A stretch of DNA of 43,193 nucleotides from Pseudomonadota bacterium. Lineage in GTDB: Bacteria; Pseudomonadota; Gammaproteobacteria; Acidiferrobacterales; Acidiferrobacteraceae. The notes below the pieces were generated by a model, which had not been told where the DNA came from, ran no database searches, and worked only from the letters and a program-made list of their open reading frames with translations. Location: NCBI GenBank assembly GCA_021794595.1, contig JAJYQN010000088.1, positions 1 through 43,193 on the forward strand, read 5' to 3'. A program made the position numbers and the translations under genes. This document shows positions 13,590-39,368 of the stretch, piece by piece (the first letter of the stretch is position 1; each line of letters starts with the position of its first letter).

Positions 13590-13592
13590 GGA

Positions 13593-15340: not shown

Positions 15341-15608
15341 GAGGGCGCTCATGTGACGTCTCCTGGCCATCGTCGTCACGATGCGCCGCAGGAGAAATAC
15401 AAATGGGCAGCATAGGAAAAGTTGGCACTGTCTAGTGATCAGCAACACAGCCTCACGCCCGCTGCAGGCGCCCGCAAGCAGGAATCACGGCGCGCAGCCG
15501 CCGATGGGCGGTTTGAGTATGCCGTGCGCGATATGGTGGATGACCCCCATAAAGTCAATCAACTTCATGGTATGTGGTACATAGAGCATAGGTCGGGCGC
15601 GGGAATTC
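15341..15608. other. spacer with no assigned gene
   Basis: No recognisable gene. A plus-strand frame (15422-15649) contains FEYAVRDMVDDPHKVNQLHGMWYIEH, which looks more protein-like than random, but it lacks a ribosome site and runs into the VapC coding region on the other strand. It may be a fragment of an unknown gene. Confidence 0.3.
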
Positions 15609-16250: not shown

Positions 16251-16299
16251 GATGGCATACCCCCTTGTCACGAGGCAGTATACCACAGAAAAACCAGAG

Positions 16300-19153: not shown

Positions 19154-20542
19154 ATGATCCGCATATTTAGGCATTATTTGCCCAAGGGTTTATTGATCCT
19201 TGGTCTCTCGGAGATGTTGGTTTTGTGGGGCGCCCTTTATGCCGGGGTCCTCCTGCGGTCGGGGTCCTCCAGCACCGCCCTCTACGCCCATACGATGTCC
19301 AACGGGAAGGCGTTTTTGTTCATCGTTGTCATGTTGACGGTGATGACCGCCTTCGGCCTCTATCAGCGGGACCTGAAAGAGGGGCAGTGGGGCTACTTTC
19401 CGCGCCTTTTAGTTAGCCTCTCCTTGGGCTTTATCGTCTTTTGCTTATCTGTGCCCCTGGTTCCTTCGCTCATACTGCCGCCACCTACCTTGGCCTATGT
19501 GGTCTTGGTCGCCTTGTGCGGCACCATGCTGACGCGGCTTTTATATATCGCGATCGTTGGCAGGGCCGCCATCAATCGCCAGGTCCTGGTGCTGGGAACG
19601 GGGCGCCGGGCGCGCGCCGTCCAAGCGCTTGCCAAGGGCACGCCCGGTCATCCGGGCTTTCATGTCGTGGGGTTTGTGGCTTGTGGCGATAAGGAGGACG
19701 GGCAGGGGGGGCAGGTTTTGCGCCACCACAGGTCCTTGTCCGTATTGGCTAAAGATAATCGTGTGACAGAAATCGTAGTGGGCAGTCGGGATCGCCGTAT
19801 GACGCTTCCCATCAATGAGCTTCTGGAGTGCAAGCTCTCCGGGGTGCGGGTGATGGATCTCACCACGTTCTTCGAGCGCGAGAGCGGCCGCATTGAACTC
19901 GAGTCCTTGAATACGAGCTGGCTCGTCTTTGCCGATGGGTTTCAGCAAAGCCTGCTGAAGACCTGGGTAAAGCGGGCCTTTGATATCGTGGCGAGCACGG
20001 TTCTTCTGATCCTGTGCCTGCCGGTGATGGCGCTGACCGCCCTCTTGATTAAGCTCGAAGACAATGGTCCGGTGTTTTACCGCCAGGATCGCGTCGGGCA
20101 AGGCAATCGGCCGTTTGCCTTGCTCAAGTTTCGCAGTATGCGCGTGAATGCGGAAAAGGACGGCGCCCCCCAATGGGCCGCCAAGAACGACCAGCGGGTG
20201 ACGAGGCTCGGCGGCTTCATGCGCAAGGTTCGGATCGACGAATTGCCCCAGGCCTTCAACGTCTTGCGCGGCGACATGAGTTTCGTGGGCCCCAGGCCCG
20301 AACGCCCGTTTTTCGTCAACCAATTGACCGAATCGATCCCCTACTATAGCTATCGCCATACCATAAAGCCCGGGATCACCGGCTGGGCGCAGGTGCGCTA
20401 TCCCTATGGGGCCTCGGTCGAGGACGCAGTCGAGAAGCTCAAATACGACCTTTACTACGTAAAAAACAATTCCCTTTTTCTGGACCTCATTATCCTCTTT
20501 CAAACCCTCCAGGTACTCATTTTTCAGGATGGCGCGCGTTAG
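19154..20542 (+). CDS. undecaprenyl-phosphate sugar-1-phosphate transferase (EPS initiation)
   Basis: Starts the repeat unit by moving a sugar phosphate onto the lipid carrier. 462 residues. The N-terminal half has four membrane helices and a CoA-binding-like domain (VLVLGTGRRARAV). The C-terminal half is a bacterial sugar transferase: KRAFDIVASTVLLILCLPVMA, FYRQDRVGQGNRPF, LLKFRSMR, DELPQAFNVLRGDMSFVGPRPE and GITGWAQVRYPYGAS. This arrangement matches the subfamily found in exosortase A/PEP-CTERM EPS loci. It is the first gene of the locus, ATG 19154 with AAGGA upstream. The sugar transferred cannot be read from sequence. Confidence 0.9.
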   Translation: MIRIFRHYLPKGLLILGLSEMLVLWGALYAGVLLRSGSSSTALYAHTMSNGKAFLFIVVMLTVMTAFGLYQRDLKEGQWGYFPRLLVSLSLGFIVFCLSVPLVPSLILPPPTLAYVVLVALCGTMLTRLLYIAIVGRAAINRQVLVLGTGRRARAVQALAKGTPGHPGFHVVGFVACGDKEDGQGGQVLRHHRSLSVLAKDNRVTEIVVGSRDRRMTLPINELLECKLSGVRVMDLTTFFERESGRIELESLNTSWLVFADGFQQSLLKTWVKRAFDIVASTVLLILCLPVMALTALLIKLEDNGPVFYRQDRVGQGNRPFALLKFRSMRVNAEKDGAPQWAAKNDQRVTRLGGFMRKVRIDELPQAFNVLRGDMSFVGPRPERPFFVNQLTESIPYYSYRHTIKPGITGWAQVRYPYGASVEDAVEKLKYDLYYVKNNSLFLDLIILFQTLQVLIFQDGAR

Positions 20543-20656
20543 ATATTGAGATGTAAGAGGGTCCTGCGGGCGGACCAAGGTCGGATATAAGCGATGAGCC
20601 CGTAGCGTTATGGTTGAGTTGCTCTCACAAGGAAGATAGACCCAAGGATGAAACAC

Positions 20657-21286
20657 ATGAAGCTGAAGCCACTAGTCGCAGTCCTCGCACTGGCCGGTCT
20701 GAGCGCTTGCGCAGAGACCCCCATGCGACCCTCACAGACCTTATCGGCGCATGCGTCTCAGGCGGCGCTTGCAAAGACCCCCCATTACCGTTTAGCGGTA
20801 GCAGACGTGGTCGAGATCTCGGTTTGGCACAACAAGCGCCTGTCGGAGACCGTGCCCGTGCGCCCGGACGGGCGGATATCGATGCCTCTGATCGGCTCGG
20901 TGGCGGTCGCCGGACACACGGCCTCGGGCGTTGCCCACACCATTACGCACAAGCTCGACTACTACGTCCGTGATCCGCAGGTCACTGTGATCGTAAAGAA
21001 GGTGGTGGCCGATAGTTACGAGGATCGGGTCCGGGTCACGGGGGCGGTCCAGCATCCGGCGTCGCTGCAGTTCGAGCCGGGAATGACCGTCCTCGATGCG
21101 GTGTTGGACGCAGGCGGGGTGAACTCGTTTGCGGCCGCTAATGACACCGAGATCCATCGCCAGGTGGGCCACGCCGAGCGCGTCATCCATGTGAAGCTTG
21201 GCAACATTTTGAGCGAGGGACACCTGGGGACCAATTATCGTCTCCGTCCGGGTGACATCGTCACGGTCCCGCAACGCCTCTTTTAG
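20657..21286 (+). CDS. Wza-like polysaccharide export lipoprotein
   Basis: Outer-membrane export channel component. 209 residues from ATG 20657, with a lipobox LSAC whose Cys18 would be lipidated. A Poly_export domain follows (YRLAVADVVEISVWHN, VRPDGRISMPLIGSV), then an SLBB-like domain (VRVTGAVQHPAS, YRLRPGDIVTVP). It is shorter than E. coli Wza and resembles the compact form found in exosortase-associated loci. ATG 20657 is favoured because AAGGA lies eight bases upstream; ATG 20648 is an alternative. It lies between the initiating transferase and the chain-length gene. Confidence 0.9.
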   Translation: MKLKPLVAVLALAGLSACAETPMRPSQTLSAHASQAALAKTPHYRLAVADVVEISVWHNKRLSETVPVRPDGRISMPLIGSVAVAGHTASGVAHTITHKLDYYVRDPQVTVIVKKVVADSYEDRVRVTGAVQHPASLQFEPGMTVLDAVLDAGGVNSFAAANDTEIHRQVGHAERVIHVKLGNILSEGHLGTNYRLRPGDIVTVPQRLF

Positions 21287-21313
21287 TCACGCCACCCAAG
21301 GAAGGGATACTGT

Positions 21314-22843
21314 ATGAGACTCACTTTCGAGCAGAACGCTCACATTCTCGGTAAGGAGGCGTTTTCGCATCGCCGCTTCGTTGCCGGGACTTTTATTGCG
21401 GTGACGGCTATCGCCACCATGACTGGCCTTCTCTGGCCAAAAACCTACCAGTCGACGTCCATGATACTGGTGAACAACAAGCGTCTGATCGATCCGCTCA
21501 TCAAGGGAGCGGCCTTCCAGCCGGACGTAGGCCAGCAACGCGCCAAGATCGCGCAGGATTTGATTACCAGTCGCGAGGTCCTGGTTCCGGCCATGACCAA
21601 GGCCGGCTTCTTCAAGAAGAACATGTCCGCCGGCAGAAAAGCGGAGCTCGTGAAGTCGGTACGCGCTAACGCCGCGGTCATGGATCTCGGCAAAAACCTG
21701 ATCAGCGTCTCGTTCAAGGACCGTAACCCGACGCGCGCCTACCACCTCACGCAAGCGGTGGTCAACCAGTTCATAGGCCAAGATCGCTTATCGGCCATGC
21801 AGCAGGCACAAAGCGCCTACTCGTTCCTCAATCAAGAGGTGGCGTCTTATCGGCATCGCTTAACGAGCGAGGCGGGCGAGATCAAAAAGCTCAAGGCCAA
21901 TACGCTTGATGCGAACCAGACCTATGCTCGTTATGAGCGCCGGCGCATTTCCCGTCTCCGCGCGGCCTACGACAAGAGCCGGATCGAGTTGAAGGAAGAT
22001 CAAGGCCGGGTACTTGTCCTTGAGCAGGAACTGACCGGTCACGGCCAGAACAATTCGATCCTGGCCCAAGAAGGCCTTGACCGTTCACGGCTCATCGCCG
22101 ACGAGGCCCAGCTCCAGAAGCTCGGTCTTTATTACCGCCGGACGTATCCTGGAATCCAGGTGTTGAGCGCCGAGGTCAAGACTTTGCGGGCCAAGCTCGC
22201 GGCGCTCACGGCCAAGGAAAAGGCCCTTCACCCCGGCAGCCAACCTTTTGCCTTCGCGGTCGGCTCGGGACGCTTCTTCCAGAAGCTCGAGCATGAGTTA
22301 GACAACACCCAGGCGCGGGTGGCGACCTTACAGGCCGAGGCCGCCGAGACCCAGCTGCTCTTAAAGTCGCAGATGGCTAATCTTCGCGATTCGCAGGGCT
22401 CGTCGGCGGTGTCGACCTTGTTGCGCAACTACAACGTGAATCAAGAGACCCTGAACGGGCTTTTGAAGCGTCGCGAACAGGCCCGTGTGTCCCTCAATCT
22501 GAATAAGCAGCGGCAATCGCTTTCGTTCCGAGTCTATGAGCCGGCCAACCTTCCGGCCGAGCCTATAGGACCGCCGTTTGCCCTCTTTGTGATTGGCGGC
22601 ATCGTGCTGGGCCTCGTGTTGCCGTTCGGTCTGCTCTATGGCCGGACGCAGATGGATGCCCGGGTACGCGCCGAGGCTGTCATACCGGAGACCCTGAACC
22701 TTCCCCTGCTTGCGGTGGTGCCCCATCTTTATGCACCGAGCGAGTCGCTGACCGCGCGCCGTAGCGTGCATTGGCTCGGGGTCTTGGTGTTCAGTGTGTT
22801 GTTTATCGCCGTCAGTATTGTCCTATCGGGTAGGAATATATGA
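21314..22843 (+). CDS. Wzz-family chain-length determinant
   Basis: Inner-membrane polysaccharide co-polymerase that sets chain length and contacts export proteins. 509 residues. One membrane helix near residues 25-43, a long periplasmic part rich in coiled coil (about 150-410), a proline-rich segment (ANLPAEPIGPP) before a second helix at about 420-440, and an extra hydrophobic helix at the very C-terminus (about 485-503). No tyrosine-kinase domain is fused. The stop overlaps the next gene as ATGA, so this and the CpsD-like protein are translated together, the usual split Wzc arrangement. Confidence 0.9.
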   Translation: MRLTFEQNAHILGKEAFSHRRFVAGTFIAVTAIATMTGLLWPKTYQSTSMILVNNKRLIDPLIKGAAFQPDVGQQRAKIAQDLITSREVLVPAMTKAGFFKKNMSAGRKAELVKSVRANAAVMDLGKNLISVSFKDRNPTRAYHLTQAVVNQFIGQDRLSAMQQAQSAYSFLNQEVASYRHRLTSEAGEIKKLKANTLDANQTYARYERRRISRLRAAYDKSRIELKEDQGRVLVLEQELTGHGQNNSILAQEGLDRSRLIADEAQLQKLGLYYRRTYPGIQVLSAEVKTLRAKLAALTAKEKALHPGSQPFAFAVGSGRFFQKLEHELDNTQARVATLQAEAAETQLLLKSQMANLRDSQGSSAVSTLLRNYNVNQETLNGLLKRREQARVSLNLNKQRQSLSFRVYEPANLPAEPIGPPFALFVIGGIVLGLVLPFGLLYGRTQMDARVRAEAVIPETLNLPLLAVVPHLYAPSESLTARRSVHWLGVLVFSVLFIAVSIVLSGRNI

Positions 22844-23679
22844 GCAAAGTCGAGAAAGCATTGCAGAAAGCGCGGGCCTTGGACGAGTTGGCGCAGCCGA
22901 TCCCTACAACGGCATCGGCTGTCGCCCAGGAAAAGCCGCTCGCCATCACGAACGGCGATCTGGCCGCCTATACCGCGCAGATCCCTCGGATGTCGCAAAA
23001 GTTCCAACTGGAGCGCTCCGACCTCGGAGAAGCGAAGATCATCTACCAAGAGATGGAGGATGCGCGAGTGGTGGAGTCATTCCGACATATGCGAACACAT
23101 ATCCTGCAAAACGCTGGTCCGAGCAATTGTGTGGTCCTTGTCACCTCGGTCGTTCCTGACGGCGGGGCGAGTTTTGTGGCGCTGAATCTCGCTGCCGCCT
23201 TCGCCTTCGACGAGAGCAAGACCGCGCTGCTCATAGATTGCCGCCTGCGGGATCCGAAACAGGATCGATTGGTGGGTGCCGATATCCATTATGGGCTCAC
23301 CGATTACCTGGAGGCCGAGGACGTGGGTGTTTCGCAAATCATTCATGAAGGTGGTCTCCCGCGCTTTAGGCTCATTCCCGCCGGCCACAGGAGCGACTCC
23401 GGCACCGAGCACTTGAACTCTCGCCGGATGCGGGAGCTCATTAACCATCTGAAGGAGCGCTATCCAGACCGCTACATCATCCTTGATGCGGCATCACCCA
23501 TGGAATCGGCCGATGCCGCGGTGTTGGCGGAGCTGGCCGACTTCGTGCTCCTGGTGGTGCCGTACGGCAAGGCCACCGAGTCTCAGATCTGGGGCGCCGC
23601 AAAATCCATAGATGAGCAAAAGTTTCTCGGCGTGGTCTTTAACGACGAGCCGCAGCCCCGTCGCGTCATCTGGAATTAA
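22840..23679 (+). CDS. CpsD/CapB-like partner of Wzz with degenerate P-loop
   Basis: 279 residues, homologous to cytoplasmic bacterial tyrosine kinases that control EPS polymerisation. The kinase core is recognisable (ESFRHMRTHIL, VLVTSVVPDGGASFVALNLAAAFAF in two parts, TALLIDCRLRDP, YIILDAASP), but the P-loop reads PDGGASF where active kinases have GxGKT/S, so the lysine is gone. Walker A' has Cys-Arg where Wzc-type enzymes have Cys-Asp. There is also no C-terminal tyrosine cluster; the protein ends RRVIWN. It is therefore probably a non-catalytic regulator. The frame and codon use are otherwise normal, which argues against decay. Confidence 0.82.
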   Translation: MSKVEKALQKARALDELAQPIPTTASAVAQEKPLAITNGDLAAYTAQIPRMSQKFQLERSDLGEAKIIYQEMEDARVVESFRHMRTHILQNAGPSNCVVLVTSVVPDGGASFVALNLAAAFAFDESKTALLIDCRLRDPKQDRLVGADIHYGLTDYLEAEDVGVSQIIHEGGLPRFRLIPAGHRSDSGTEHLNSRRMRELINHLKERYPDRYIILDAASPMESADAAVLAELADFVLLVVPYGKATESQIWGAAKSIDEQKFLGVVFNDEPQPRRVIWN

Positions 23680-23682
23680 AGC

Positions 23683-25074
23683 GTGCGTAACTCAAATAAA
23701 GTGGCCCGCATCGTGAGGATGCTGGGCGTGGGCTCCTGCGCTCTCGCGGTCTTCTGTGCCAGAGCGCAGGCCTCTCACATTGAATACGGGGTCGGCTACG
23801 ACGGGATATTTACCAACAATATCTACAGACAGTCGACCAACAAGCAACGGGAGTTCATCAATGAGCCGCGCGCGCTCTTCTCTTACCAGAAGCACAGCCG
23901 GCGTATTGATACCCACTTGGACCTGGAGGCCATAGGACGCCAGTTCATGTACGGGACCTACCCCAACGATGTGTTGTTTGGGGTAAATTCTCTGACCCAC
24001 ATCGTGGTCTTGCCGAAGGCGTTTAGCCTGTCCGAGCGCGATATCTTCACGCAGGCGCCGATCGATCCGCGGTTTGTGATGCAGCCGACGAATCTCCAGA
24101 ACACCAACGCGTTTTCGGCGGGCCCAAACTTCTCCTGGTATCTGGACCCGATAGACGCCTTTAAGGTCGATTTGCGCTATCGGAACTTTTATTACCAGAA
24201 GGAGCCTTCTACATTCCCGACCACGTACTCGACAAGCAATTACCGGTTCGTGGCCGAGACCCGTTTTGTGCATGCCTTTAGCCGCCGTACCAAGGCGTCC
24301 ATAAACTATGTGCCGTCCGAGGTGTTTTATCGAAACACGGTCGTGAACCCGGATTACCGGCGCCAGGACGTCTACGTCGGTCTTGACACGCGCTTTGGGA
24401 ACGCCGGGTTGACCGCGGACGGCGGTCGGACGCGTATCGAGCAAACGGGCCGCCCGGGAACGCTCTCCGGGACCCTGGCGAGGCTCGCCCTGGATGACCG
24501 CTTAGGCCCCCGTTCACGGGTTGTTTTGGCGGCCGATCGTAGCTATGGCGACGCTGGGCGCTATGCGCTCCAGGAGGCCCCGGCCCAGAATCTCTTGGTC
24601 CCGGTCGCGACCAATCCCTCGCAGATCATAGGCGGCGGCCTATACTACGGGCGCATGGCGAGCGTGGGCTACGAATATCGGCGGGCCTATGGCACGGATC
24701 GCATCAATGCCTTCTGGCAGCATCTCCACTATTTGACGGCGACCTTGAGTCAACAGCTCGAGGGCGGGGTCTTTAATCTGGGCTACGATTTTTCAGACCG
24801 GTTCACGGACTCGATTTTCGGGGATTACGTTAAGGTCCATTACTTCAATTTCAATGCTGACACCAGGGATTTTGGTGGGGGCATGCGCCTGCGTTATCGC
24901 CTGTCGCCGGATCTCAGTGTGAGTCTCGAAGGCATGTATGACCGCGGCTTGAGTACGGACTCCGCGCTCGCGTATAGCGAGTGGCGGGCCATCATCGGGG
25001 TCTCGTATCTGACGAACCCGAACCGTATGCGCACCGATCCGTTCGTCCATTACACCAACACCGTGTTCTATTAG
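23683..25074 (+). CDS. outer-membrane beta-barrel protein of the EPS locus
   Basis: 463 residues. An N-terminal signal peptide (VRMLGVGSCALAVFCARAQA) with likely cleavage before SHIEYG is followed by a long run of alternating, aromatic-rich strands (for example YGVGYDGIFTNNIYR, FKVDLRYRNFYYQK, YFNFNADTRDFGGGMRLRYRL). The C-terminus FVHYTNTVFY ends in an aromatic residue, as barrel proteins do. It matches the large beta-barrel that follows the tyrosine kinase in exosortase-type EPS loci, where its role in export is suspected but not proven. GTG 23683 is the only plausible start, three bases after the previous stop. Confidence 0.82.
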   Translation: MRNSNKVARIVRMLGVGSCALAVFCARAQASHIEYGVGYDGIFTNNIYRQSTNKQREFINEPRALFSYQKHSRRIDTHLDLEAIGRQFMYGTYPNDVLFGVNSLTHIVVLPKAFSLSERDIFTQAPIDPRFVMQPTNLQNTNAFSAGPNFSWYLDPIDAFKVDLRYRNFYYQKEPSTFPTTYSTSNYRFVAETRFVHAFSRRTKASINYVPSEVFYRNTVVNPDYRRQDVYVGLDTRFGNAGLTADGGRTRIEQTGRPGTLSGTLARLALDDRLGPRSRVVLAADRSYGDAGRYALQEAPAQNLLVPVATNPSQIIGGGLYYGRMASVGYEYRRAYGTDRINAFWQHLHYLTATLSQQLEGGVFNLGYDFSDRFTDSIFGDYVKVHYFNFNADTRDFGGGMRLRYRLSPDLSVSLEGMYDRGLSTDSALAYSEWRAIIGVSYLTNPNRMRTDPFVHYTNTVFY

Positions 25075-25076
25075 CC

Positions 25077-26165
25077 ATGTATCTAGACTACTTCAAACTC
25101 AAGGAACACCCGTTTCAGATCACACCAGACTCGGACTTCCTTTATATGAGCGCGGCGCATTCGCGGGCCAAGGCCTATATGGACTATAGCATCCGCAACC
25201 GCGATGGGTTCGTGATCATTACCGGTGAAGTGGGCGCCGGAAAGACGACGCTTATCCGTAAGCTCCTATCGGAGTTCGATGACAACGTCGTGGTGGCAAA
25301 GATTTTTCAGACGCAACTCGACGAAATCCAGTTCCTGCAGGCGGTACTCGTCGAATTCGGACTGAATCCCTTTAACGCCGGAAAGGTAGAGCTCATGGAC
25401 ATGCTCTCGTCGTTTCTGGTCGAGAGCTTCGTGAAGCGTAAGCAACTGGTCTTGATCGTCGATGAGGCCCAAAACCTGAATCGACGGGTGCTTGAGGAGA
25501 TCCGGATGTTGTCTGGCCTCGAGACCCAGAAGCAGAAGATCCTGCACGTCATTTTGGTCGGCCAGCCGGAGTTGAACGAGACCCTCGATGCCCCGGGTCT
25601 TGAGCAACTAACCCAGCGTGTCAGGCTCAGATTCCACATTGCGGCCCTGACCGAGGCTGAGGCCGCAGACTATATTTATCATCGTCTCCGGGTGGCCGGC
25701 GCCAAGGACGCCGAGTCGTTATTCTCCCGCGACGCCATCCCGATCATATATGAATACACAGGCGGTATACCGCGCTTGATGAATACCTTGTGCGACACGG
25801 CCATGACCTGCGCCTTTGCGGATGATGCCACGGTGGTCGATGAGTCGGTAGTGAAGTCGGCGGTGTTGGAGTTGCAATGGAAGCCATTCAATACCCGGAG
25901 TCGACAAGCGGCCAGGATCCAGGCGATAGCGCCTTCGACCAGCGCCCCGTCTTCGTTTGGGGTAGCCGATGTCGAGCAATTGTCTCAGGCGCTTGCGGCC
26001 ATAGAGCCGCGTCTGGATGGGATCGAGGCGCTTTTGCGAACCATGGTGACCATCCTGCAAAGGCGAAATCGGATTTCCTTGCGACTCGGCGAACACCAAG
26101 TCACGCAAATCTTGAAGCAGGTCAGCGCCGAACTGGGAAAGCTACAGGCCCATCACGAGGCTTAA
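25077..26165 (+). CDS. ExeA/GspA-like AAA ATPase of the EPS locus
   Basis: 362 residues. The N-terminus MYLDYFKLKEHPFQITPD is the hallmark of ExeA-type ATPases. Walker A GEVGAGKT lies at 50-57 and Walker B LIVDEAQNL at 126-134, with GGIPRLMN as the sensor 2 segment. The C-terminal 100 residues are low-complexity and helical and lack the peptidoglycan-binding domain of ExeA. This form is the usual ATPase encoded after the beta-barrel in exosortase-associated EPS clusters; its exact job there is unknown. It starts two bases after the barrel gene stop. An upstream in-frame start would only read back into the barrel gene. Confidence 0.88.
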   Translation: MYLDYFKLKEHPFQITPDSDFLYMSAAHSRAKAYMDYSIRNRDGFVIITGEVGAGKTTLIRKLLSEFDDNVVVAKIFQTQLDEIQFLQAVLVEFGLNPFNAGKVELMDMLSSFLVESFVKRKQLVLIVDEAQNLNRRVLEEIRMLSGLETQKQKILHVILVGQPELNETLDAPGLEQLTQRVRLRFHIAALTEAEAADYIYHRLRVAGAKDAESLFSRDAIPIIYEYTGGIPRLMNTLCDTAMTCAFADDATVVDESVVKSAVLELQWKPFNTRSRQAARIQAIAPSTSAPSSFGVADVEQLSQALAAIEPRLDGIEALLRTMVTILQRRNRISLRLGEHQVTQILKQVSAELGKLQAHHEA

Positions 26166-26176: not shown

Positions 26177-28150
26177 ATGTGTGGAATAGCGGGGATACTG
26201 GCATTTCCGGGGGGCGAGCGCCCAATGGCTACGGAAGTGGAGGCGATGGTACGGCGTATTCAGCATCGCGGACCGGATGGCCAGGGCTTCTATGTGGATA
26301 CGTTCGCCTGCCTTGGTCATGCTCGTCTCAGCATTATCGACCTCACCGGGGGCACTCAGCCCCTGGCCAACGAGGATCGGACCATTTGGGTGACCTTCAA
26401 TGGCGAGATATTCAATTATATCGAGCTGAGACGCCATCTCAAAAAGCGCGGCCATGCCTTTTCCACTCAAAGCGATACCGAGGTCATAGTCCATCTCTAC
26501 GAGGAGTATGGCCTCGATTTCCCGAGTCACCTAAACGGCCAGTTTGCGATCGCCCTGTGGGATAGCGTGCGTGGGCGCCTAGTTCTCGCTCGCGATCAGG
26601 CCGGCATTCGCCCGCTGTTCTTTTACTCGGGCCGCCAGCGGCTCTACTTCGGGTCTGAGGTGAAGGCGATCTTCGCCTGCCCAGAGGTTCCTCGGTCGTT
26701 GAATTGGGCGGGCGTGGCCCAGATCTTCACCTACTGGGGCGCCCCCGGCGCGGATACCGTCTTTCAGGGCATAGAAAGTGTGGCACCCGGTTGCACGGTG
26801 GTGTTCGATAAGCACGGCGCACGCCAAGACCGGCGCTATTGGGACTGGGACTTTCCCTCCCATTCGGCGGTCGACACGCGCAGTTTTCAGGAATGTCTCG
26901 AAGGCTTGGACGAGGTACTCGGAGGCGCTGTCGGCCGCCAAGTGCGTTCGGACGTGCCGGTCGGCGCCTACATCAGCGGGGGCTTGGATTCGGCCATGAT
27001 CATATCCTACCTGGCGCGTGTTTTGCCCGGTCCGATACCGACGTTCTCGCTCCGGTTTGCTGATCGTGAGTTCGACGAAGGGCCCTATCAAAAGGCAGTG
27101 GTGCAGAAATTCGGGACAGTACACACCGAGGTTACGGCCAGCACGAGCGAAATCGGCCGGGCCTTTCCACAGGCGGTTTGGCACGCGGAAAGCCCGCTTC
27201 TGCGCACCGCCCCCGTGCCGATGATGTTGCTCGCCCAGTGCGTGCGCACCCATGGTATCAAAGTGGTCCTGACCGGCGAGGGCGCTGACGAGACCCTGGC
27301 CGGCTACGACCTTTTCCGCGAGGCCCGCGTCCGCAGGTTTTGGGCCCGGGTTCCGGGCTCCCGGATGCGCCCAGCGCTCTTGTCTCGCTTATATCCGTAC
27401 TTGAGCGCATCGCCGGCGGCCTCGGCCGCCTATGCCCAGCGGTTCTTCGGGCAAGAGCTGGAGTCGGCCAATCGACCGGGCTTTGGTCATTGGCCGCGCT
27501 GGCAGACGACCCGTCGCGCGATGCAGTTCTTGAATCCCGACCTCAGGGCCTCCCTGGAGTTTGACTACAAGGCCGCGGCCGAGGCGCTGTTGCCCCATGA
27601 CCACGAGCGTTGGAACGCCTTGAGCGTCGATCAGTATATAGAGGCCCATACCCTCTTATCGGGTTACCTTTTGAGCTCGCAAGGCGACCGTATGGCTCTT
27701 GCCCATAGCGTCGAGACCCGGGTCCCGTTTTTGGATCTCAAGGTCATGGAGTACGCCAATCGTCTCCCGGCGCGCTACAAGCTGATGGGCCTTAAGGAGA
27801 AATACATCCTTAAGGCTCTGGGCCGCGGTCGGATACCGGACGCCGTGTGCGCCCGCCCGAAACAACCCTACCGCGCGCCGGACAGCCAGAGCTTTTTCCA
27901 TAAAGGCGTACCCGATCCGCGCGTAGCCGCGGCTTTTGAAAAAAAGCGACTGCTGGAAGTCGGATATTTCGATGCTGAGTCCGCCTGTAAGCTCTTCGAT
28001 AAATGCCGGCGCGGAAGGGCCATAGGGTTTGCGGACAACATGGCCTTCGTCGGGATTTATTCCACCATGCTAGTCCACGAACAGTTCGTGGAAGGGCGAG
28101 GTGCAGAGTCCGGGGTACAGGACGTACTACCGGAAGCCAGGGTCGGCTAG
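26177..28150 (+). CDS. AsnB-type glutamine amidotransferase (EPS locus)
   Basis: 657 residues, two domains. Residues 1 to about 210 are a class II glutaminase with nucleophile Cys2 (MCGIAGIL), RGPDGQGFY, LGHARLSIID and FNGEIFNY. The rest is an asparagine-synthetase-like ATP pyrophosphatase with SGGLDS at about 267-272, LTGEGADE and SVETRVPFLD. Relatives in exosortase A-associated loci are called amidotransferase 1; they are thought to form an amide on a sugar acid or other acyl acceptor, releasing AMP and pyrophosphate. ATG 26177 has GAGGGG five bases upstream. The acyl-AMP ligase, ACP and NadE-like genes follow directly, suggesting a shared pathway. Confidence 0.9.
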   Translation: MCGIAGILAFPGGERPMATEVEAMVRRIQHRGPDGQGFYVDTFACLGHARLSIIDLTGGTQPLANEDRTIWVTFNGEIFNYIELRRHLKKRGHAFSTQSDTEVIVHLYEEYGLDFPSHLNGQFAIALWDSVRGRLVLARDQAGIRPLFFYSGRQRLYFGSEVKAIFACPEVPRSLNWAGVAQIFTYWGAPGADTVFQGIESVAPGCTVVFDKHGARQDRRYWDWDFPSHSAVDTRSFQECLEGLDEVLGGAVGRQVRSDVPVGAYISGGLDSAMIISYLARVLPGPIPTFSLRFADREFDEGPYQKAVVQKFGTVHTEVTASTSEIGRAFPQAVWHAESPLLRTAPVPMMLLAQCVRTHGIKVVLTGEGADETLAGYDLFREARVRRFWARVPGSRMRPALLSRLYPYLSASPAASAAYAQRFFGQELESANRPGFGHWPRWQTTRRAMQFLNPDLRASLEFDYKAAAEALLPHDHERWNALSVDQYIEAHTLLSGYLLSSQGDRMALAHSVETRVPFLDLKVMEYANRLPARYKLMGLKEKYILKALGRGRIPDAVCARPKQPYRAPDSQSFFHKGVPDPRVAAAFEKKRLLEVGYFDAESACKLFDKCRRGRAIGFADNMAFVGIYSTMLVHEQFVEGRGAESGVQDVLPEARVG

Positions 28151-28167
28151 AACGTAAGGGAGTAGGT

Positions 28168-29742
28168 ATGTTGTTGTATGAGTTGTTAGACGAGAAGGCC
28201 TCCGCTCAACCCGCTGCCGAAGCTTTGGTGGCGGATGGACGCCACTTGACGTATCAAGATATCAAAGACCGCAGCGACGAACTCGCCAGGGGCTTGGTGG
28301 AGGGCGGGGTTGGGCGCGGTGACCGAGTTGCGATCTTTATGGATAACTCGCCTGAGATGGTGGCTGCCCTCTACGGCGTCTTGAAGGCCGGGGCGATCTT
28401 CGTGCCGGTCAACCCGCTGACAAAGTCGGAAAAACTCGGATTTATCCTCAAGGATTGCGAGGCTAAGGCGCTTATCAGTGATGGTCATCTGCGCCCGGTC
28501 TATAACGCGGCCCTTGCGATCTATCGGCCCTCGCTTGTGGTCTTGAATGCGCCAACGGCAGCGGACGAGGGCCTATCCTATCGGACGTTCCCGCGGGAGA
28601 CCTCATCAAAAGGGCGACCCGAGGTGGCGATCATTGACCAAGACTTGGCCGCCATCATTTATACCTCGGGGTCGACCGGGGAACCGAAGGGCGTGATGTT
28701 AACGCACCATAACATGGTGAGCGCCGCCCGTTCGGTTTCCCAATATCTAGGGCTTGCCTCGTGCGACCGTATCCTCTGTTGCCTGCCGCTCGCCTTCGAC
28801 TACGGGCTCTATCAGGTACTGATGGCCTTCATGACCGGGGGCTGCGTCATTCTCGAGCGTTCGTTCGCGTTTCCGGCAGCGGTTGTCAAGGTGATGGCCG
28901 CCGAACGGGTCACGGTATTACCTGGGGTCCCAACCATATTCTCTATTCTTTTGGGTCACGAGGGCATATTTTCGGCCTACGATTGCCGTGCGGTGCGCAT
29001 GATCACGAATACCGCCGCAAGTCTGCCCCCCCAGCATATCGAGCGTCTGCGGGCGCGCTTCCCTCAGGCCCAGATCTTCTCCATGTATGGGCTTACCGAG
29101 TGTAAGCGCGTCACCTATCTGCCGCCGGAGGAACTCGCGACAAGGCCTACCAGCGTCGGGCGCGGCATGCCGAACGAAGAGGTGTATCTCGTGGATCCCG
29201 AGGGGCGGCGGCTTCCGCCGGGCTCAGTGGGCGAGCTTGTCATTCGTGGCAGCCACGTCATGCGCGGCTATTGGCGACGCCCCGAGGAAACAGCGAAGCG
29301 TTTGAAGGCCGGCCCTTATCCGGGCGAAATGGTGCTGTACTCGGGCGACATTTTCCATATGGACGAGGATGGCTATCTCTACTTCATCGGGCGTTCGGAC
29401 GACATCATCAAAAGCCGCGGTGAGAAGGTGAGCCCGAAAGAGGTCGAAAACGTGCTTTATGCTCTTGCGCAGGTCGCGGAGGCCGCGGTCATCGGCGTAG
29501 ACGACGAGGTCTTGGGGCAGGCCGTGCACGCCTTTGTCGTCCTCCAGGATGATGCCGGCATGAGCGAACGCGAGATCATTCGTCACTGTTACACGCATAT
29601 GGAAAGCTACATGGTACCAAAGGCTGTGCATATCGTGGCGTCGCTGCCGAAGACCGATACCGGAAAGATCAGGAAGTCCGGTTTGGCGTCTCTTGCGCGC
29701 GGCAGGGTTTCAGAAAATTCAGGAATTCTACGGGCAGTATAA
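28168..29742 (+). CDS. acyl-AMP ligase (ANL superfamily) of the EPS locus
   Basis: 524 residues. ATP-binding YTSGSTGEPKG at about 165-175, a middle MYGLTECKR motif, the hinge region YSGDIFHMDEDGYLYFIGR and the catalytic lysine in KTDTGKIRKS. These enzymes activate a carboxylic acid as the adenylate and load it on CoA or, as suggested by the ACP encoded next, on a carrier protein. Closest known setting is the exosortase A-associated ligase. The substrate is unknown; the ligase has no obvious amino-acid specificity code that I can read. ATG 28168 has GGGAG upstream. Confidence 0.9.
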   Translation: MLLYELLDEKASAQPAAEALVADGRHLTYQDIKDRSDELARGLVEGGVGRGDRVAIFMDNSPEMVAALYGVLKAGAIFVPVNPLTKSEKLGFILKDCEAKALISDGHLRPVYNAALAIYRPSLVVLNAPTAADEGLSYRTFPRETSSKGRPEVAIIDQDLAAIIYTSGSTGEPKGVMLTHHNMVSAARSVSQYLGLASCDRILCCLPLAFDYGLYQVLMAFMTGGCVILERSFAFPAAVVKVMAAERVTVLPGVPTIFSILLGHEGIFSAYDCRAVRMITNTAASLPPQHIERLRARFPQAQIFSMYGLTECKRVTYLPPEELATRPTSVGRGMPNEEVYLVDPEGRRLPPGSVGELVIRGSHVMRGYWRRPEETAKRLKAGPYPGEMVLYSGDIFHMDEDGYLYFIGRSDDIIKSRGEKVSPKEVENVLYALAQVAEAAVIGVDDEVLGQAVHAFVVLQDDAGMSEREIIRHCYTHMESYMVPKAVHIVASLPKTDTGKIRKSGLASLARGRVSENSGILRAV

Positions 29743-29773
29743 CAACTTCTTAGGAAGAGCGGGAGCAAACGAA

Positions 29774-30046
29774 ATGAAAAACGTAAGGGACCAGGTCAGG
29801 AACTACATTTCTGATAACTTTCTTATGGGATTACAAGACGCGGCCATTACGGATCATGCATCGTTTTTGGACCTGGGGATTATCGATTCGACTGGCGTTA
29901 TAGAGCTTATCGCGTTTCTCGAGGAGACCTACGGCATCCGGGTTGAAGACGCGGAAATGGTTCCCGATAACCTCGATAGCCTCGAGGCCATAGATAAGTA
30001 CGTAGCGCGGAAGACATTTTCCTGCGCTTCGTCCATGACTGCGTAG
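29774..30046 (+). CDS. acyl carrier protein
   Basis: 90 residues, acidic. The phosphopantetheine site is Ser39 in DLGIIDSTGVIEL, the carrier-protein DSxG motif, followed by a helix (IELIAFLEETYG) as in ACPs. It lies between an acyl-AMP ligase and a NadE-like gene, so it probably carries the acyl group that the ligase activates. ATG 29774 has a GGGAG about ten bases upstream. The C-terminus (KTFSCASSMTA) is atypical and may be a tail. It is not the fatty-acid synthesis ACP, which sits elsewhere in proteobacterial genomes. Confidence 0.88.
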   Translation: MKNVRDQVRNYISDNFLMGLQDAAITDHASFLDLGIIDSTGVIELIAFLEETYGIRVEDAEMVPDNLDSLEAIDKYVARKTFSCASSMTA

Positions 30047-30049
30047 GAG

Positions 30050-31033
30050 ATGGATGTGCAACCGGTAAAAGAATTGGCGGTGGATTCGCTCCTGGCTATG
30101 GATTATGACCATGCCATACGTAACATAGCGCGGCAGTTCAAGGAGACAGTGGTAAGGTTTAGGAGGCGCGGTGCGATCGTGGCCGTGTCCGGCGGAGTGG
30201 ATAGCGCGGTGTGCTGCGCATTGGCGGCGCAGGCCCTGGGGAGCCGGCGGGTTCTGGCGCTGCTGCTTCCCGAGAAGGAATCATCCCCGAATTCGGAACG
30301 GCTCGCCCTTGAGGTCGTAAAGACCCTAGGCGTGCCTTATGAACGCCAAGACATCACCGGAGCGCTCGAGTCTCTCGGCTGTTATGAAAGGCGCGACGCG
30401 GCGATCCGCGCCGTGATCCCAGCTTACGGTCCCGGTTGGCGCAATAAGCTTGCTATCGCAGGTGGGTTGTCGGGCCAGTTCAATCACTTTTATTTGATCG
30501 CCGCCGATCCGAACGGTGAGCGTGTCGAGCGCCGTCTGGGTCTTAAGGAATACCTTCAGATCGTCGCCGCGACCAATTTCAAACAGCGGACCAGAAAGAA
30601 TGTCGAGTATTACCACGCGGACCGCTTGAACTATGTCGTGGTAGGGACGCCCAATAAGCTCGAGTACGACCAGGGGTTTTTCGTCAAGAACGGAGACGGC
30701 GCGGCCGACATCAAACCCATCGCCCATTTGTACAAGACCCAGGTGTACGGTTTGGCCCGCCATATGCGTCTCCCTCAGGAGATCATAGACTCGACCCCGA
30801 CCAGCGACACATACAGCCTTCCGCAAGAGCAGGAATCCTTTTATTTCGCTCTTCCCTATGGGGATTTGGACGTCGCGCTCCTGTATCTGGAGAACGGGCG
30901 CACGGCGGCCGAGCTCGCCACGGCGATCGGGGTCGACGAACTTACCGCGGCGCGAGTCTATGCCGACATAGTGGCCAAGCGCCGAAGTACTCGTTACTTG
31001 CACGAGTCGCCCGTGTTGTTGCAGGGCGCGTGA
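30050..31033 (+). CDS. NadE-like ATP-pyrophosphatase in the EPS cassette
   Basis: 327 residues. The ATP-pyrophosphatase P-loop SGGVDS is at 47-52, and the NAD-synthetase segments are clear: GTPNKLEYDQGFFVKNGDG, DIKPIAHLYKTQVYGLAR and TPTSDTYSLPQEQ. There is no glutaminase domain, so ammonia must come from elsewhere; the amidotransferase upstream is a candidate. True NadE makes NAD from deamido-NAD, but its place after ligase and ACP suggests a different carboxylate. A second, housekeeping nadE would test this. ATG 30050 touches the GGAG; GTG 30056 has better spacing and may be the true start. Confidence 0.82.
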   Translation: MDVQPVKELAVDSLLAMDYDHAIRNIARQFKETVVRFRRRGAIVAVSGGVDSAVCCALAAQALGSRRVLALLLPEKESSPNSERLALEVVKTLGVPYERQDITGALESLGCYERRDAAIRAVIPAYGPGWRNKLAIAGGLSGQFNHFYLIAADPNGERVERRLGLKEYLQIVAATNFKQRTRKNVEYYHADRLNYVVVGTPNKLEYDQGFFVKNGDGAADIKPIAHLYKTQVYGLARHMRLPQEIIDSTPTSDTYSLPQEQESFYFALPYGDLDVALLYLENGRTAAELATAIGVDELTAARVYADIVAKRRSTRYLHESPVLLQGA

Positions 31034-31043
31034 GGGGTTGTGT

Positions 31044-31646
31044 ATGCGTTATGAAGTCAAGGCGGTGGCGGTTTTAGTTGCACACCTTGTGACGTGGCCG
31101 TTTACGGTGCCGGCGCTGATTGCTTACCGGGTATTCCAGTCAGAGCGGTTCTTTGACTTCTCCGCCAAGTTTCTGAGTCTCTTGCCTGGCCGCGTGGGGC
31201 AACTGGTGCGGGCCTCGTTTTATATGCAGACCCTCAGTCGTTGTCATTACGACATCGCGGTCGGCTTCGGTTCGTTCTTTTCGCACCCCAGCGCCGAGGT
31301 TGGCCGCAGCGTCGGGATCGGAAGCTTTTCGATTATCGGAACGGCACGATTGGACGACGATGTGATGGTGGCGAGCCGAGTGTCGGTTCTGAGTGGCAAG
31401 TACCACCACGGAGGGGGCCGTCGCGGCCGCGTAATGCGCGTGAATCAGCTTGAGCTCCAAAAAGTTCATGTCGGAGAAGGCAGCTGGCTCGGCGAGGGTT
31501 CTCTTATCATGGCCGATGTCGGGCGGCATTGTATCATTTCGGCCGGGAGCGTGGTGACTAAGGCTGTGCCGGACGATGCCACGGCGATCGGCAATCCCGC
31601 CCGGTTCCTACGTTACGCGGATAAACAAGAAGCAGCTGCGGTTTAG
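31044..31646 (+). CDS. hexapeptide-repeat acyltransferase 1
   Basis: 200 residues. An N-terminal hydrophobic helix (VAVLVAHLVTWPFTVPALIA) anchors it to the membrane; the rest is a left-handed beta-helix of hexapeptide repeats (IGSFSIIGTARLDDDVMVASRV, VGEGSWLGEGSLIMADVGRHCIISAGSVVTKAVPD) ending in the AIGNPAR motif common to sugar acetyltransferases. It may transfer acetyl, or the acyl group made by the preceding cassette, to the polysaccharide. ATG 31044 has GAGGGG six bases upstream; a TTG at 31038 is less likely. Confidence 0.85.
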   Translation: MRYEVKAVAVLVAHLVTWPFTVPALIAYRVFQSERFFDFSAKFLSLLPGRVGQLVRASFYMQTLSRCHYDIAVGFGSFFSHPSAEVGRSVGIGSFSIIGTARLDDDVMVASRVSVLSGKYHHGGGRRGRVMRVNQLELQKVHVGEGSWLGEGSLIMADVGRHCIISAGSVVTKAVPDDATAIGNPARFLRYADKQEAAAV

Positions 31647-31694: not shown

Positions 31695-33116
31695 ATGCGC
31701 GCGCGGGGTCTTGCGCTCCGGCGCCTCGGCTCAGAAGCCGGTGGGGCGGGCGTGACTCTCAAGGAGATCATACGCTACGCGGGTACGCTCTATGGCGCCA
31801 ATGTGGCGGCCTCGTTCGTGACCTTCGGCCTCACTATCCTGATCAGTCGCGATATCTCGCGCACCGATCTCGGGATCTATGGGCTGTTCCAGGCCTACTT
31901 CCTCTTTGGTGCCTATGCCTCGGGGTTTGGGCTGGCGCCAGCCACGGTCAAGTGGGTGGCAAGCGGCGCGGTCGACGATGGTGAGTTCCTGACGTTCATT
32001 CTGACCCGGTTGGGGGCTATCGCGTTGCTCTTGTATGTCGGGGCTTTCGCGGCCTATTTCCTGCACATGCCCATTTTGGCCGCCGCCCTTGTGGCCCTGC
32101 CGCCTTATCAGGCCTTCAATATTGCCTTAAGCGCCGCGCGAGCGCGCCTCTGGCGTCGGCGGGAGGCGGCGCTTTTGGTGGTGGCCTCGCTTACCACCTC
32201 GGCCTGGATATTCGGGTTTTTGTTTGTCGGCCACACCTATTGGGCCCCGGTGGCAGGACAGGTCTTAGGCGCCTATACGACAGCGCTTGTGGTCATTGCC
32301 TACGGCCTTCGCCAAAAGCGCCTGCGACTCAAGTGGCCAGGTGCCTGGAGGCGGGCGTTTTGGCGGACCGCGTTACCTGTATTTCTTGGTTCGTCGGTGT
32401 TTGCGATAGGTGAACTCGCCGACCGGCTGGTCATAGGACATGTGCTGGGTCTGCCGAGCCTTGGTATCTATGTCATGGCCCTGACCTTGTTTAACGTCCT
32501 CAATAAGCCCGTCCATATGTTGTCGCGCGTTTTGCTGTCGCATTTCTCGCAACTGAACGATGGTCATGGGCACGCAAAGGCGCCCGAAATCGTTCGTTTG
32601 AACTTGGCGGTCCTTCCGCTCATGGGCCTTACGGCCGCGGCGGTTCTGCCATGGGTAATCCCACAGCTTCTCAATCGCAACTTTACGCTTGCCTTTCCGG
32701 TGTTTGCGGTCCTGACGGTGGTGATACTCATAAAGGCGGTCGAGCTCGTGCATTCAAGTCTCGCCGTAGCTCAGGATTCGGCCGGAAGCAATATGCGCGC
32801 CCAAATAGCGGCCCTATTGGCGTACGCGGCCGTGGTGTTTGTATTGGCCGAAAGGTTCGGTTTGATCGGGGTCGCTTGGGCCATCGTTTTACGGTGGACG
32901 GTGTTGGCGCTTGTCCAGCGTTTCGATATGAGGCGCCGCGGGGTCGATGCCCTACCGGCCAGCCTTTTGATACGGGCCGCGGTGGCTTACCTCGCGGCCT
33001 TGTCGTTTTTTACCATCGCGCCTTGGTTTATGGGTATTGCCTACTTGATAGCGGGTGCGGCCCTGCGCCTTTGGGCGGCACCGCGATCATGGCGACTAGC
33101 TGCGCGGCGGACCTGA
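31695..33116 (+). CDS. Wzx-type polysaccharide flippase
   Basis: 473 residues, with about 12-14 predicted membrane helices spread along the protein, beginning with IIRYAGTLYGANVAASFVTFG and LFQAYFLFGAYASGFGLA. The pattern and the TRLGA, GVAWAIVLRWTVLA type segments fit the MOP/Wzx superfamily, which flips lipid-linked repeat units across the inner membrane. ATG 31695 has only a weak ribosome site. GTG 31752 (VTLKEIIRY) removes 19 polar residues, has a G-rich site upstream and may be the real start, giving 454 residues. Confidence 0.85.
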   Translation: MRARGLALRRLGSEAGGAGVTLKEIIRYAGTLYGANVAASFVTFGLTILISRDISRTDLGIYGLFQAYFLFGAYASGFGLAPATVKWVASGAVDDGEFLTFILTRLGAIALLLYVGAFAAYFLHMPILAAALVALPPYQAFNIALSAARARLWRRREAALLVVASLTTSAWIFGFLFVGHTYWAPVAGQVLGAYTTALVVIAYGLRQKRLRLKWPGAWRRAFWRTALPVFLGSSVFAIGELADRLVIGHVLGLPSLGIYVMALTLFNVLNKPVHMLSRVLLSHFSQLNDGHGHAKAPEIVRLNLAVLPLMGLTAAAVLPWVIPQLLNRNFTLAFPVFAVLTVVILIKAVELVHSSLAVAQDSAGSNMRAQIAALLAYAAVVFVLAERFGLIGVAWAIVLRWTVLALVQRFDMRRRGVDALPASLLIRAAVAYLAALSFFTIAPWFMGIAYLIAGAALRLWAAPRSWRLAARRT

Positions 33117-33141
33117 AAGCAACTTTACGGAGGGACACGGA

Positions 33142-34413
33142 ATGTTGATGCCACAGACGGCAAGGATGAGGGCGCAGGGGCCCAGCGGTTCTAAACCCTG
33201 GAGCGGAACGCGAATGGTCGAGACGCCGCTTGCCAACCGATTGACGCTCGCGTCGATGTTCGTGTTTTTGGCAAAGGTCGGGAATCTCCCGCATCTCGGC
33301 CATTTCGAGATCGGGAAGGTGTTGGTCGGGCTATCGGTTCTCGCCTTGCTCTTTGAGGGCGGGGGATGGAAAGAAGGGGTGTTCGGGCATCGGGTCATGC
33401 GCCCCTATCTTGGGCTATTTTTCATGGGCCTCATTACGATCCCGCTCGCGGTATGGCCAGGCGGTAGCGCACGCTTCCTATTCGGAAACTATTTAAAGGA
33501 CATGGTGCTCGTCGTTTTGCTGATCGTAACCACCAGGACGCCGCAGGATCTTCGGCGGCTCTTGTGGACGGTGATCATAAACACCCTCATCCTTGATCTC
33601 GTTCTTCTGCACTACGGTATCCATAAGATCACGATCGTAAAGCTCGGTAAGAACGAGATCGCGATGACATCGGTCATTGCCCTAGGCCTTCTGTTGGGTC
33701 TGCCGACCGCCGGGCTCGGCAAGCTATTTAAGTGGGCGGCCGGCATCATGCTGGTCTATGCGGTCTTCATGAGTGTGTCGCGCGGGAGCTACTTAGGGGT
33801 GTCTTTGGTGCTGACGCTCTTTATGTACTTCCGTTTTGGCAATCGCACAGCGCTTGCGATCCTTGGGGTAATGGTGTTCGCGGTGGGCGTGTACGCCTTC
33901 GGGCCGCCGCGGGTCCATCATACGATCAATACCCTCATTCATATTCAGAACGACTACAACCTGACGGCCCGCACTGGGCGCATAGCGATATGGAAGCGGG
34001 GAGTAAAGATCGTCGAGGCGCATCCACTCGGGGTCGGTATGCGCAACTTCCCGATTGCCGAAGGCCATTTGGTCGAAGACGTGATCGGCGAACGGTGGAT
34101 GGATGCCCATAACGCCCTGCTCGAGGTCACAGCGGAGCTTGGCATATTGGGTGGCCTCGTCTTTCTGACGCTATTAAAGCGTGGCATGCAGACCGCCAAC
34201 AAGCTTCGCAAGCAGAAGAACCTACCGGAGCTATCGGCGATCGGGCTTTCGGCGGTGCTGGCGCTGCTTGGGTATTTCTTGACCGCCTCGTTCCTGTCGG
34301 AGGCCTACGCGGTCATTTTGTACATCCTTATGGCCATTATCATTTCTTCAGATCGTGTTTATACCTACATGCTTGCGAGGGAAAAAGATGTCATATCTGG
34401 ACAAGGTGCGTAG
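33142..34413 (+). CDS. O-antigen ligase/polymerase family protein (Wzy-type)
   Basis: 423 residues, about ten membrane helices and one larger periplasmic loop. That loop holds the conserved segment TARTGRIAIWKRGVKIVEAHPLGVG (in two parts) and DAHNALLEVTAELGILGG, the Wzy_C family signature with His-Asn. Such proteins polymerise repeat units or ligate polymers. Since the neighbouring gene is a flippase and a Wzz protein is present, polymerase is more likely. ATG 33142 has GGAGG upstream. The 3' end overlaps the next gene by 26 bp. Confidence 0.87.
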   Translation: MLMPQTARMRAQGPSGSKPWSGTRMVETPLANRLTLASMFVFLAKVGNLPHLGHFEIGKVLVGLSVLALLFEGGGWKEGVFGHRVMRPYLGLFFMGLITIPLAVWPGGSARFLFGNYLKDMVLVVLLIVTTRTPQDLRRLLWTVIINTLILDLVLLHYGIHKITIVKLGKNEIAMTSVIALGLLLGLPTAGLGKLFKWAAGIMLVYAVFMSVSRGSYLGVSLVLTLFMYFRFGNRTALAILGVMVFAVGVYAFGPPRVHHTINTLIHIQNDYNLTARTGRIAIWKRGVKIVEAHPLGVGMRNFPIAEGHLVEDVIGERWMDAHNALLEVTAELGILGGLVFLTLLKRGMQTANKLRKQKNLPELSAIGLSAVLALLGYFLTASFLSEAYAVILYILMAIIISSDRVYTYMLAREKDVISGQGA

Positions 34414-38600: not shown

Positions 38601-39368
38601 ATGACGGTCATCTTTATGCATCACGACATCATCGATCAGGATCTCAAAAAAAAGAGCGGCTTTTACGGGGCCGGAGCCGAGGTTTACAAGGTCTCTGTCG
38701 GGATCTTTCGCGAGCAGTTAGCGGGGCTTGCGGCCGCGTTCCCGGGCCAGGCGCCGGCGCTCGACGGCAAGGCGCCTTTTGCTTTTACTTTCGATGACGG
38801 CGGCGTGTCGGCGACCGAGAGCGTGGCGGGGCTATTGTCTGAGCACGGTTGGTCCGGCCACTTCTTCGTTGTGACGGGCTTTATCGGCATGCCGGGCTTC
38901 GTGTCGGCGTCGGGGCTGCGGGCGCTGAAGGCTAGTGGCCACGGAATCGGGACCCACACCGTAAGCCACCCGCATCGCCTCCAGGCTTTGCCGTACGCGC
39001 AGATCAAGCGCGAATGGGCCGAAAGTCGCGCGCGCCTCCAAGATCTTTTGGGTTGCGATGTCACGAGCGGATCGGTGCCGGGGGGTTTTTGCAATAGACC
39101 GGTGCGCGAGGCCGCCATCGAGGCCGGGTTGACGCTCCTCATGACTTCAGAACCTACCACCCGGTGTTATGCCACAGCGGAGGTTACCGTATGCGGGCGC
39201 TTTGCGGTGTTGGGACGAGACGAACCGAAGGCCGCGGTAGCCTTGGCAAAGCGGGCTCACGCGCGTCGCATCAAGGCCTTGCGCTGGCACACCCTGTCGG
39301 TGGCAAAGAGCGCTTTGGGGCCGGTCTATCCCGCGGTGCGGGAAGGGCTCTTGCGCTTACGTGCTTAA
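38601..39368 (+). CDS. polysaccharide deacetylase (NodB family)
   Basis: 255 residues. The NodB motifs are complete: TFDDGGVSAT with Asp65 and Asp66, and GTHTVSHPHRL with metal-binding His119 and His123, plus PGGFCNRPVREAA. It has no signal peptide, so it would act in the cytoplasm or at its inner face, deacetylating an N-acetyl sugar in a precursor; secretion by another route is possible. ATG 38601 follows the previous stop by two bases. It is a plausible counterpart of the deacetylase gene in exosortase-type loci, though of a different subfamily. Confidence 0.88.
   Translation: MTVIFMHHDIIDQDLKKKSGFYGAGAEVYKVSVGIFREQLAGLAAAFPGQAPALDGKAPFAFTFDDGGVSATESVAGLLSEHGWSGHFFVVTGFIGMPGFVSASGLRALKASGHGIGTHTVSHPHRLQALPYAQIKREWAESRARLQDLLGCDVTSGSVPGGFCNRPVREAAIEAGLTLLMTSEPTTRCYATAEVTVCGRFAVLGRDEPKAAVALAKRAHARRIKALRWHTLSVAKSALGPVYPAVREGLLRLRA

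Follow-up and report, generated by a model that had tools for sequence, protein, structure and literature searches.

What does an enzyme annotated as an NAD(+) synthase do between a carrier protein and an acyltransferase in an exopolysaccharide (EPS) locus? The question is raised by a stretch of 43,193 nucleotides (contig JAJYQN010000088.1 of assembly GCA_021794595.1, Acidiferrobacteraceae; hereafter the window), in which five adjacent genes encode an AsnB-type protein, a ligase, an acyl/peptidyl carrier protein (ACP), a NadE-like protein, and a hexapeptide acyltransferase. Analysis of this locus and its distant counterparts revealed that the first four genes form a conserved unit, and that the NadE-like enzyme, although called NAD synthase in databases, is probably not one. 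We consider it somewhat probable that the four-gene unit builds an acyl group with a carboxamide on its dedicated carrier, and that in the window the acyltransferase moves this group onto the polysaccharide.

The five genes that a first-pass annotation had placed in a co-directional row at 26177–31646 are all present at those positions on the plus strand, with intergenic gaps of 17, 31, 3, and 10 bases (the last measured to the ATG at 31044). The first gene (26177–28150) encodes a glutamine amidotransferase/ATP-pyrophosphatase of 657 aa (TIGR01536, 477 bits), in which the nucleophile Cys2, an SGGLDS loop, and a GEGADE motif were named from reading the sequence; Cys at position 2 is found in 34 of 36 aligned sequences, with the other two gapped. 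The adenylate-forming ligase (28168–29742, 524 aa) matches Pfam AMP-binding with 343 bits. The ACP (29774–30046, 90 aa) has a PP-binding match and, as annotated earlier, an intact DSTG phosphopantetheine site, whose Ser39 is kept in 39/39 aligned sequences. It is followed by the NadE-like ATP-pyrophosphatase (30050–31033, 327 aa) and by a left-handed beta-helix (hexapeptide) acyltransferase with one Hexapep match, the candidate for the transfer step (31038–31646; the frame starts with TTG at 31038 and has an in-frame ATG at 31044). The best 19-residue Kyte-Doolittle mean of the acyltransferase is 1.92, from residue 10, which makes its proposed membrane anchoring plausible. The alignments of 36 and 39 sequences contain the window and nine close relatives, and the 36 ligases comprise the window, these nine, and 26 distant sequences. 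The nine relatives were found among named genomes, are all metagenome-assembled (one labelled Acidiferrobacteraceae), have NadE-like proteins with 74–91% identity, and repeat the same locus as far as the fetched stretches extend.

The NadE-like protein belongs to NCBIfam NF002048 (PRK00876; 438.6 bits, curated cut-off 313), a subfamily that public records name NAD(+) synthase, including in Sinorhizobium meliloti. It fails the equivalog NAD synthetase models PRK13980 (170.6 of 255 bits) and PRK00768 (82.2 of 250 bits). Its Pfam match is NAD_synthase only and no glutaminase domain is present, in agreement with the first-pass description of an ATP-pyrophosphatase lacking a glutaminase of its own. 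The protein retains the ATP loop SGGxDS (39/39 aligned sequences) and much of the GFFxKxGDGxAD region, and the residues Asn176, Lys178, Arg180, Glu205, Lys213, Asp216, and Asp220 are kept in 38–39 of the 39. All 22 positions checked are invariant or changed in a single sequence, except Cys111 (34/39) and Phe266 (36/39, with Tyr in three). From NadE structures, we take the retained residues to surround the carboxylate to be amidated. The conservation of the ATP loop and signature residues suggests that amide-forming chemistry is likely kept.

Comparison with canonical NadE and an NMN synthetase (3fiu) revealed a common fold, ATP loop, and several more residues, whereas the NadE-like protein differs from canonical NadE in an insert, the C-terminal signature, and a biosynthetic operon context; when it was compared with canonical NadE from 20 genomes that carry the subfamily, identity was 23–28%. 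The insert lies at about residues 111–168 (GCY...YLQIVAAT) and adds 44–49 residues; the segment from 108 to 172 is 65–66 residues long in 12/12 aligned family members vs 17–21 in 15/15 other NadE proteins. The C-terminal signature, DTYS..Q.Q..FYFALPY, is of its own type. In a structure model built from 10 close sequences, the insert is predicted to form a helix (111–122) and three strands. A structure search with the protein placed NadE and an NMN synthetase first and GMP synthetases from rank 38 on.

Could the protein simply be an extra NAD synthetase? It scores above the threshold of the general nadE model TIGR00552 (142.5 vs 63.65 bits), so its family is compatible with NAD synthesis, and the public annotation, the many NadE positions kept, and the top structure matches point the same way. 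Such a role is nevertheless very unlikely. Another NadE was found in all 31 genomes carrying the NF002048 subfamily, including that of the window, in which the separate, housekeeping-type gene that the first-pass annotation had proposed to look for is present (C8:40899–41645, inside a 601-aa frame). This other NadE is full-length in 29 of the 31 genomes; G072 and G518 have a partial match only, in a frame of 695–826 aa. The possibility that the NadE-like gene is the sole NAD synthetase was thus rejected. The insert and C-terminal signature, found in none of the 15 other NadE proteins in the case of the insert, also argue against an extra NAD synthetase, as do the genes that surround it.

To define these surroundings, we fetched the neighbourhoods of 30 distant loci, which are every subfamily hit except that of the window; they are partly related, as several share a family (f219, f216, f79). 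Genes were taken from mechanical stop-to-stop open reading frames and BLAST at E 0.001, so some may have been missed. On the same strand and within 6 kb of the NadE-like gene, an ACP homologue is found in 29/30 loci, the ligase in 26/30, AsnB in 26/30, and all four genes together in 24/30. As a control, the regions around canonical NadE were inspected in 20 of the 31 genomes: NadE itself was recovered in 20/20, and a homologue of AsnB, the ligase, the ACP, the window acyltransferase (LbH1), or a PrmC-like protein in 0/20. The clustering of the four genes therefore exceeds chance. The genes occur in four orders (AsnB-ACP-ligase-NadE-like, AsnB-ligase-ACP-NadE-like, NadE-like-AsnB-ligase-ACP, and ACP-ligase-NadE-like-AsnB), which indicates that the grouping was kept through rearrangement. 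A further order tallied for L074 (AsnB-ACP-NadE-like-ligase) is spurious and results from a long frame that overlaps; by position, its NadE-like gene comes after the ligase. Only 4/30 loci (L054, L056, L062, and L063) have an LbH1 homologue immediately after the NadE-like gene, and a looser hexapeptide profile matches anywhere in 7/30 stretches. In Azospirillum, a GNAT-family gene stands after the NadE-like gene (the GNAT matches are below cut-off, with one just over). Thus, the earlier proposal that the genes belong together stands for the first four, and the acyltransferase is one among several optional partners rather than a core member.

A different division of labour would place two separate decorations in one locus, with AsnB amidating a uronic acid of the polymer while the ligase, ACP, NadE-like enzyme, and acyltransferase add another group. 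WbpS-type enzymes are thought to amidate uronic acid. AsnB-type genes do occur in EPS clusters: three wbpS-like genes, two of them marked as transposon-hit, in Rubrivivax psc1 (PMC3684757), and one AsnB-type gene in a Thauera cluster (PMC4784049), with no NAD synthetase mentioned in the portions of these articles that were searched. AsnB is also absent within 6 kb in L055, L061, L064, and L071. We regard two decorations as unlikely, since AsnB stays with the ACP, ligase, and NadE-like gene in 24/30 loci and also in rhizobial sets outside any evident EPS locus, and the pairwise identities of AsnB and the NadE-like protein correlate more strongly than those of the other five gene pairs (r 0.82, relatedness not corrected).

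Analysis of the ligase and carrier gave hints about the substrate of the preferred module. The best solved relatives of the ligase are amino-acid adenylation domains of nonribosomal peptide synthetases, including LgrA and 3wvn, the latter of which we take to be VinN, and those of the ACP are peptidyl carrier proteins. The best NCBIfam matches of the ACP, both far below cut-off, are the ornithine-lipid carrier OlsHI and the cispentacin carrier AmcB. Arg314 of the ligase is invariant (36/36 aligned sequences), and position 211 is Asp in 21/36. In the family alignment, Asp211 corresponds to an Asp of the homologue L067, which in turn aligns with the FD motif of LgrA; an Asp at this position presumably binds the substrate amine, and Asp211 may accordingly bind an amine. 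By these comparisons, the ligase of the window looks like an amino-acid adenylation enzyme, and the acid is perhaps an amino acid. A similar pairing is known from vicenistatin biosynthesis, in which VinN loads 3-methylaspartate on the carrier VinL (PMC11284099): both systems have a discrete amino-acid-type adenylation enzyme and a discrete carrier, but the next step in vicenistatin is the PLP decarboxylase VinO (PMC11284099), whereas the window operon has amide synthetases in that place.

From these features we infer the chemical steps, their order, and the kind of substrate. The ligase would adenylate the acid and load it onto Ser39 of the ACP. With ammonia and ATP, the NadE-like enzyme would turn an additional carboxylate on the building block into an amide, and AsnB would either use glutamine to amidate this building block or supply the nitrogen. 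The amide would next be methylated, in some lineages, by an N5-glutamine-methyltransferase-like enzyme. In the EPS locus of the window, the hexapeptide acyltransferase would transfer the group to the polysaccharide, plausibly to an amino sugar whose amine has been freed by a deacetylase. A polysaccharide deacetylase is encoded at 38601–39368 on the plus strand (family match) and is a possible source of a free sugar amine. A GH123-like protein at 40485–42194, on the same strand (family match; GH123 is an N-acetylhexosaminidase-type family), hints at HexNAc in the polymer.

Independent indications of the product came from optional partner genes. A PrmC/HemK-like methyltransferase with an NPPY motif is found near the module in 8/30 loci and also in Mesorhizobium ciceri, and in two of the loci (L052 and L055) it lies between the ligase and the NadE-like gene. 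These genes stand at L052:8640–9536, L055:2393–3553, and L101:11163–11888 and in six other loci. All 8 genomes hold a separate PrmC above the model cut-off (in G187 covering positions 2–223 of 253 only), and the module copies score below that cut-off, matching from model position 23–53 on. PrmC methylates the side-chain amide of glutamine (N5); its presence as a partner thus hints at a carboxamide in the product. The window locus contains no PrmC-like gene, and the two matches in its genome are on other contigs (C74 and C62).

Other genes also adjoin the module. Thioesterase-type neighbours were detected by profile in 5/30 loci. Proteins of 918 and 930 aa that combine AMP-binding and thioesterase domains stand beside the NadE-like gene (L065:2359–5115, plus strand; L070:10459–13251, minus strand), which fits peptide-like chemistry and also a small-molecule product. 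A thioesterase-domain protein of 379 aa is encoded at L067:8466–9605 (plus strand). Module-adjacent proteins of about 350–410 aa without a Pfam match (L053:4267–5325; L073:4636–5859, family F22; L103:4030–5139; L101:10051–11166; those of L103 and L101 without an NCBIfam match too) are possibly further partners.

In addition to the TIGR00552 match described above, several observations weigh against the proposed carrier-bound route. The ligase falls just under the amino-acid adenylation model TIGR01733 (310.8 vs 317.4 bits). Among the 26 distant ligases, position 211 is Asp in 11 and Gly, Ser, or Ala in 15, so the substrates differ or are not always amino acids, and the idea that the ligase is always an amino-acid activator was weakened. 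The structure model of the NadE-like protein is moderate in confidence, with a mean pLDDT of 70.7 and values below 50 at 202–218 and 250–267. Some loci are incomplete within 6 kb. The ligase is missing from L054 and L056, where the other three genes are present, and AsnB is missing from L071 and from L055, which lies near a contig end; in L061 the ACP is the sole partner, and L064 is an isolated fragment. Ligase homologues with 33–40% identity are encoded elsewhere in the genomes of L054, L056, and L061. Directly beside the rhizobial four-gene sets, no acyltransferase was recognised.

The first-pass annotation had assigned the gene set to EPS decoration, and its EPS context is real for the window, in which the module sits in the middle of an EPS locus. 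Across the family, context supports this assignment in part. A homologue of CpsD, Wzc, Wza, or an initiating transferase is present in the fetched stretch of 17/30 distant loci, and a polysaccharide deacetylase homologue in 9/30. In Azospirillum thermophilum, the module adjoins an O-antigen ligase gene, glycosyltransferases, and a deacetylase. On the other hand, asnB, acp, ligase, and nadE are consecutive in S. meliloti RCAM1750, M. ciceri, and two Shinella plasmids, with no evident EPS locus around them (in Shinella preceded by one further gene; in M. ciceri with a glycosyltransferase gene about 2.8 kb away), so a decorating role is contextually supported for part of the family only.

These rhizobial sets, together with the OlsHI and AmcB matches of the ACP and the thioesterase-type neighbours, which in L065 and L070 resemble those of peptide assembly, are what would be expected if the product were a lipid or small molecule with no link to polysaccharide and the EPS location of the window module were incidental. 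We judge this improbable in view of the EPS assembly genes in the 17 distant loci and the positions of the window and A. thermophilum modules among polysaccharide genes.

The same annotation had linked parts of the set to exosortase loci, a tie that did not hold. No PF09721 match was found at E 0.01 in the genome of the window, which is about 92% complete, and an exosortase is present in 14 of the 31 genomes with the NadE-like subfamily, on the same contig and about 11–15 kb from the NadE-like gene in five (G332, G014, G301, G307, and G077). An exosortase-specific module was thus rejected. A TIGR03099-type decarboxylase did not emerge as a partner either: 14/31 genomes have a match at E 1e-60, one of them above the cut-off and about 39 kb from the module. 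The EPS genes of XrtA/PEP-CTERM systems include the same gene kinds (TIGR03108 amidotransferase, TIGR03098 ligase, and TIGR03015 ATPase), but the window proteins score below all three cut-offs (402 of 817, 490 of 592, and 312 of 324.5 bits, respectively), these models include no NadE-like gene, and no exosortase was found in the window genome.

Another system for comparison is the tetronate pathway of Vibrio cholerae O1, which uses a ligase, an ACP, and a hexapeptide acyltransferase and leads to an N-acyl group on an O-antigen sugar. The ligase, carrier, and left-handed beta-helix acyltransferase are as in the window, whereas no amidotransferase or NadE-like enzyme is known from that pathway. 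A search of the open-access literature, with supplementary files outside its scope, found no described chemistry or publication for the gene set. In the literature searched, carrier-protein-based acyl decoration with a NadE-fold partner has not been described.

A broader proposal is put forward tentatively, as falling short of probable. In it, NF002048 proteins would be carrier-protein-dependent amide synthetases rather than NAD synthetases; the helix-plus-meander insert would recognise the acyl-ACP, so that the tethered acid is amidated, and the enzyme would stand at the centre of an undescribed, widespread route to amide-bearing glycan substituents, N-methylated in some lineages. If this is true, the NAD(+) synthase annotation is wrong in every genome bearing the subfamily, and a carrier protein joins the substrates of the NadE fold. 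A laboratory strain could then serve to test the chemistry of a class of EPS substituents: in S. meliloti, a model symbiont, the module is a short set of genes open to deletion one at a time.

The subfamily is sparse, being found in 18/369 genomes of the class and 15/398 of the phylum (E 1e-60; the window genome is in both counts). Among genomes of the same genus other than that of the window, 10/13 have the NadE-like gene, and among the named control genomes, 1/14 (Methanosarcina acetivorans). In plasmids, 116 of 72,556 records carry the NadE-like protein, of which 76 are from Sinorhizobium; the phages searched gave no match. A lone broken copy with an internal stop is present at L064:10010–10525, where no ACP, ligase, or AsnB was found nearby; its genome also has a canonical NadE.

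The remaining genes of the EPS locus in the window for which positions are given here are on the plus strand. The upstream neighbour of the module (25074–26165) encodes the XrtA-type EPS-associated ATPase mentioned above. Before it, genes for EPS assembly (19154–25074: an undecaprenyl-phosphate sugar transferase, Wza-like, Wzc-like, and CpsD-like proteins, and an outer-membrane protein) were named by reading of the sequence and gene order; the protein at 21314–22843 has a weak GNVR match (21.5 bits, cut-off 27.7), and the one at 23683–25074 has no match in Pfam. Downstream, family matches identified a flippase (Polysacc_synt_3) and a Wzy_C/O-antigen ligase-type protein (31695–34413), and glycosyltransferases were recognised by reading of the sequence.

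The window also contains genes apart from the EPS locus. A candidate anti-phage system is formed by an AAA ATPase and RloB pair at 12954–14891 and 14979–15428 on the minus strand (PADLOC AbiLi/AbiLii, 325 and 91 bits), which a second, partial RloB-like frame adjoins. An MqsA-type antitoxin is encoded at 1095–1604 on the minus strand (Pfam, 211 bits), and a frame at 15609–16286, also on the minus strand, matches a PIN toxin domain and, below the cut-off, a Phd/YefM antitoxin (28.7 bits, cut-off 29.8).

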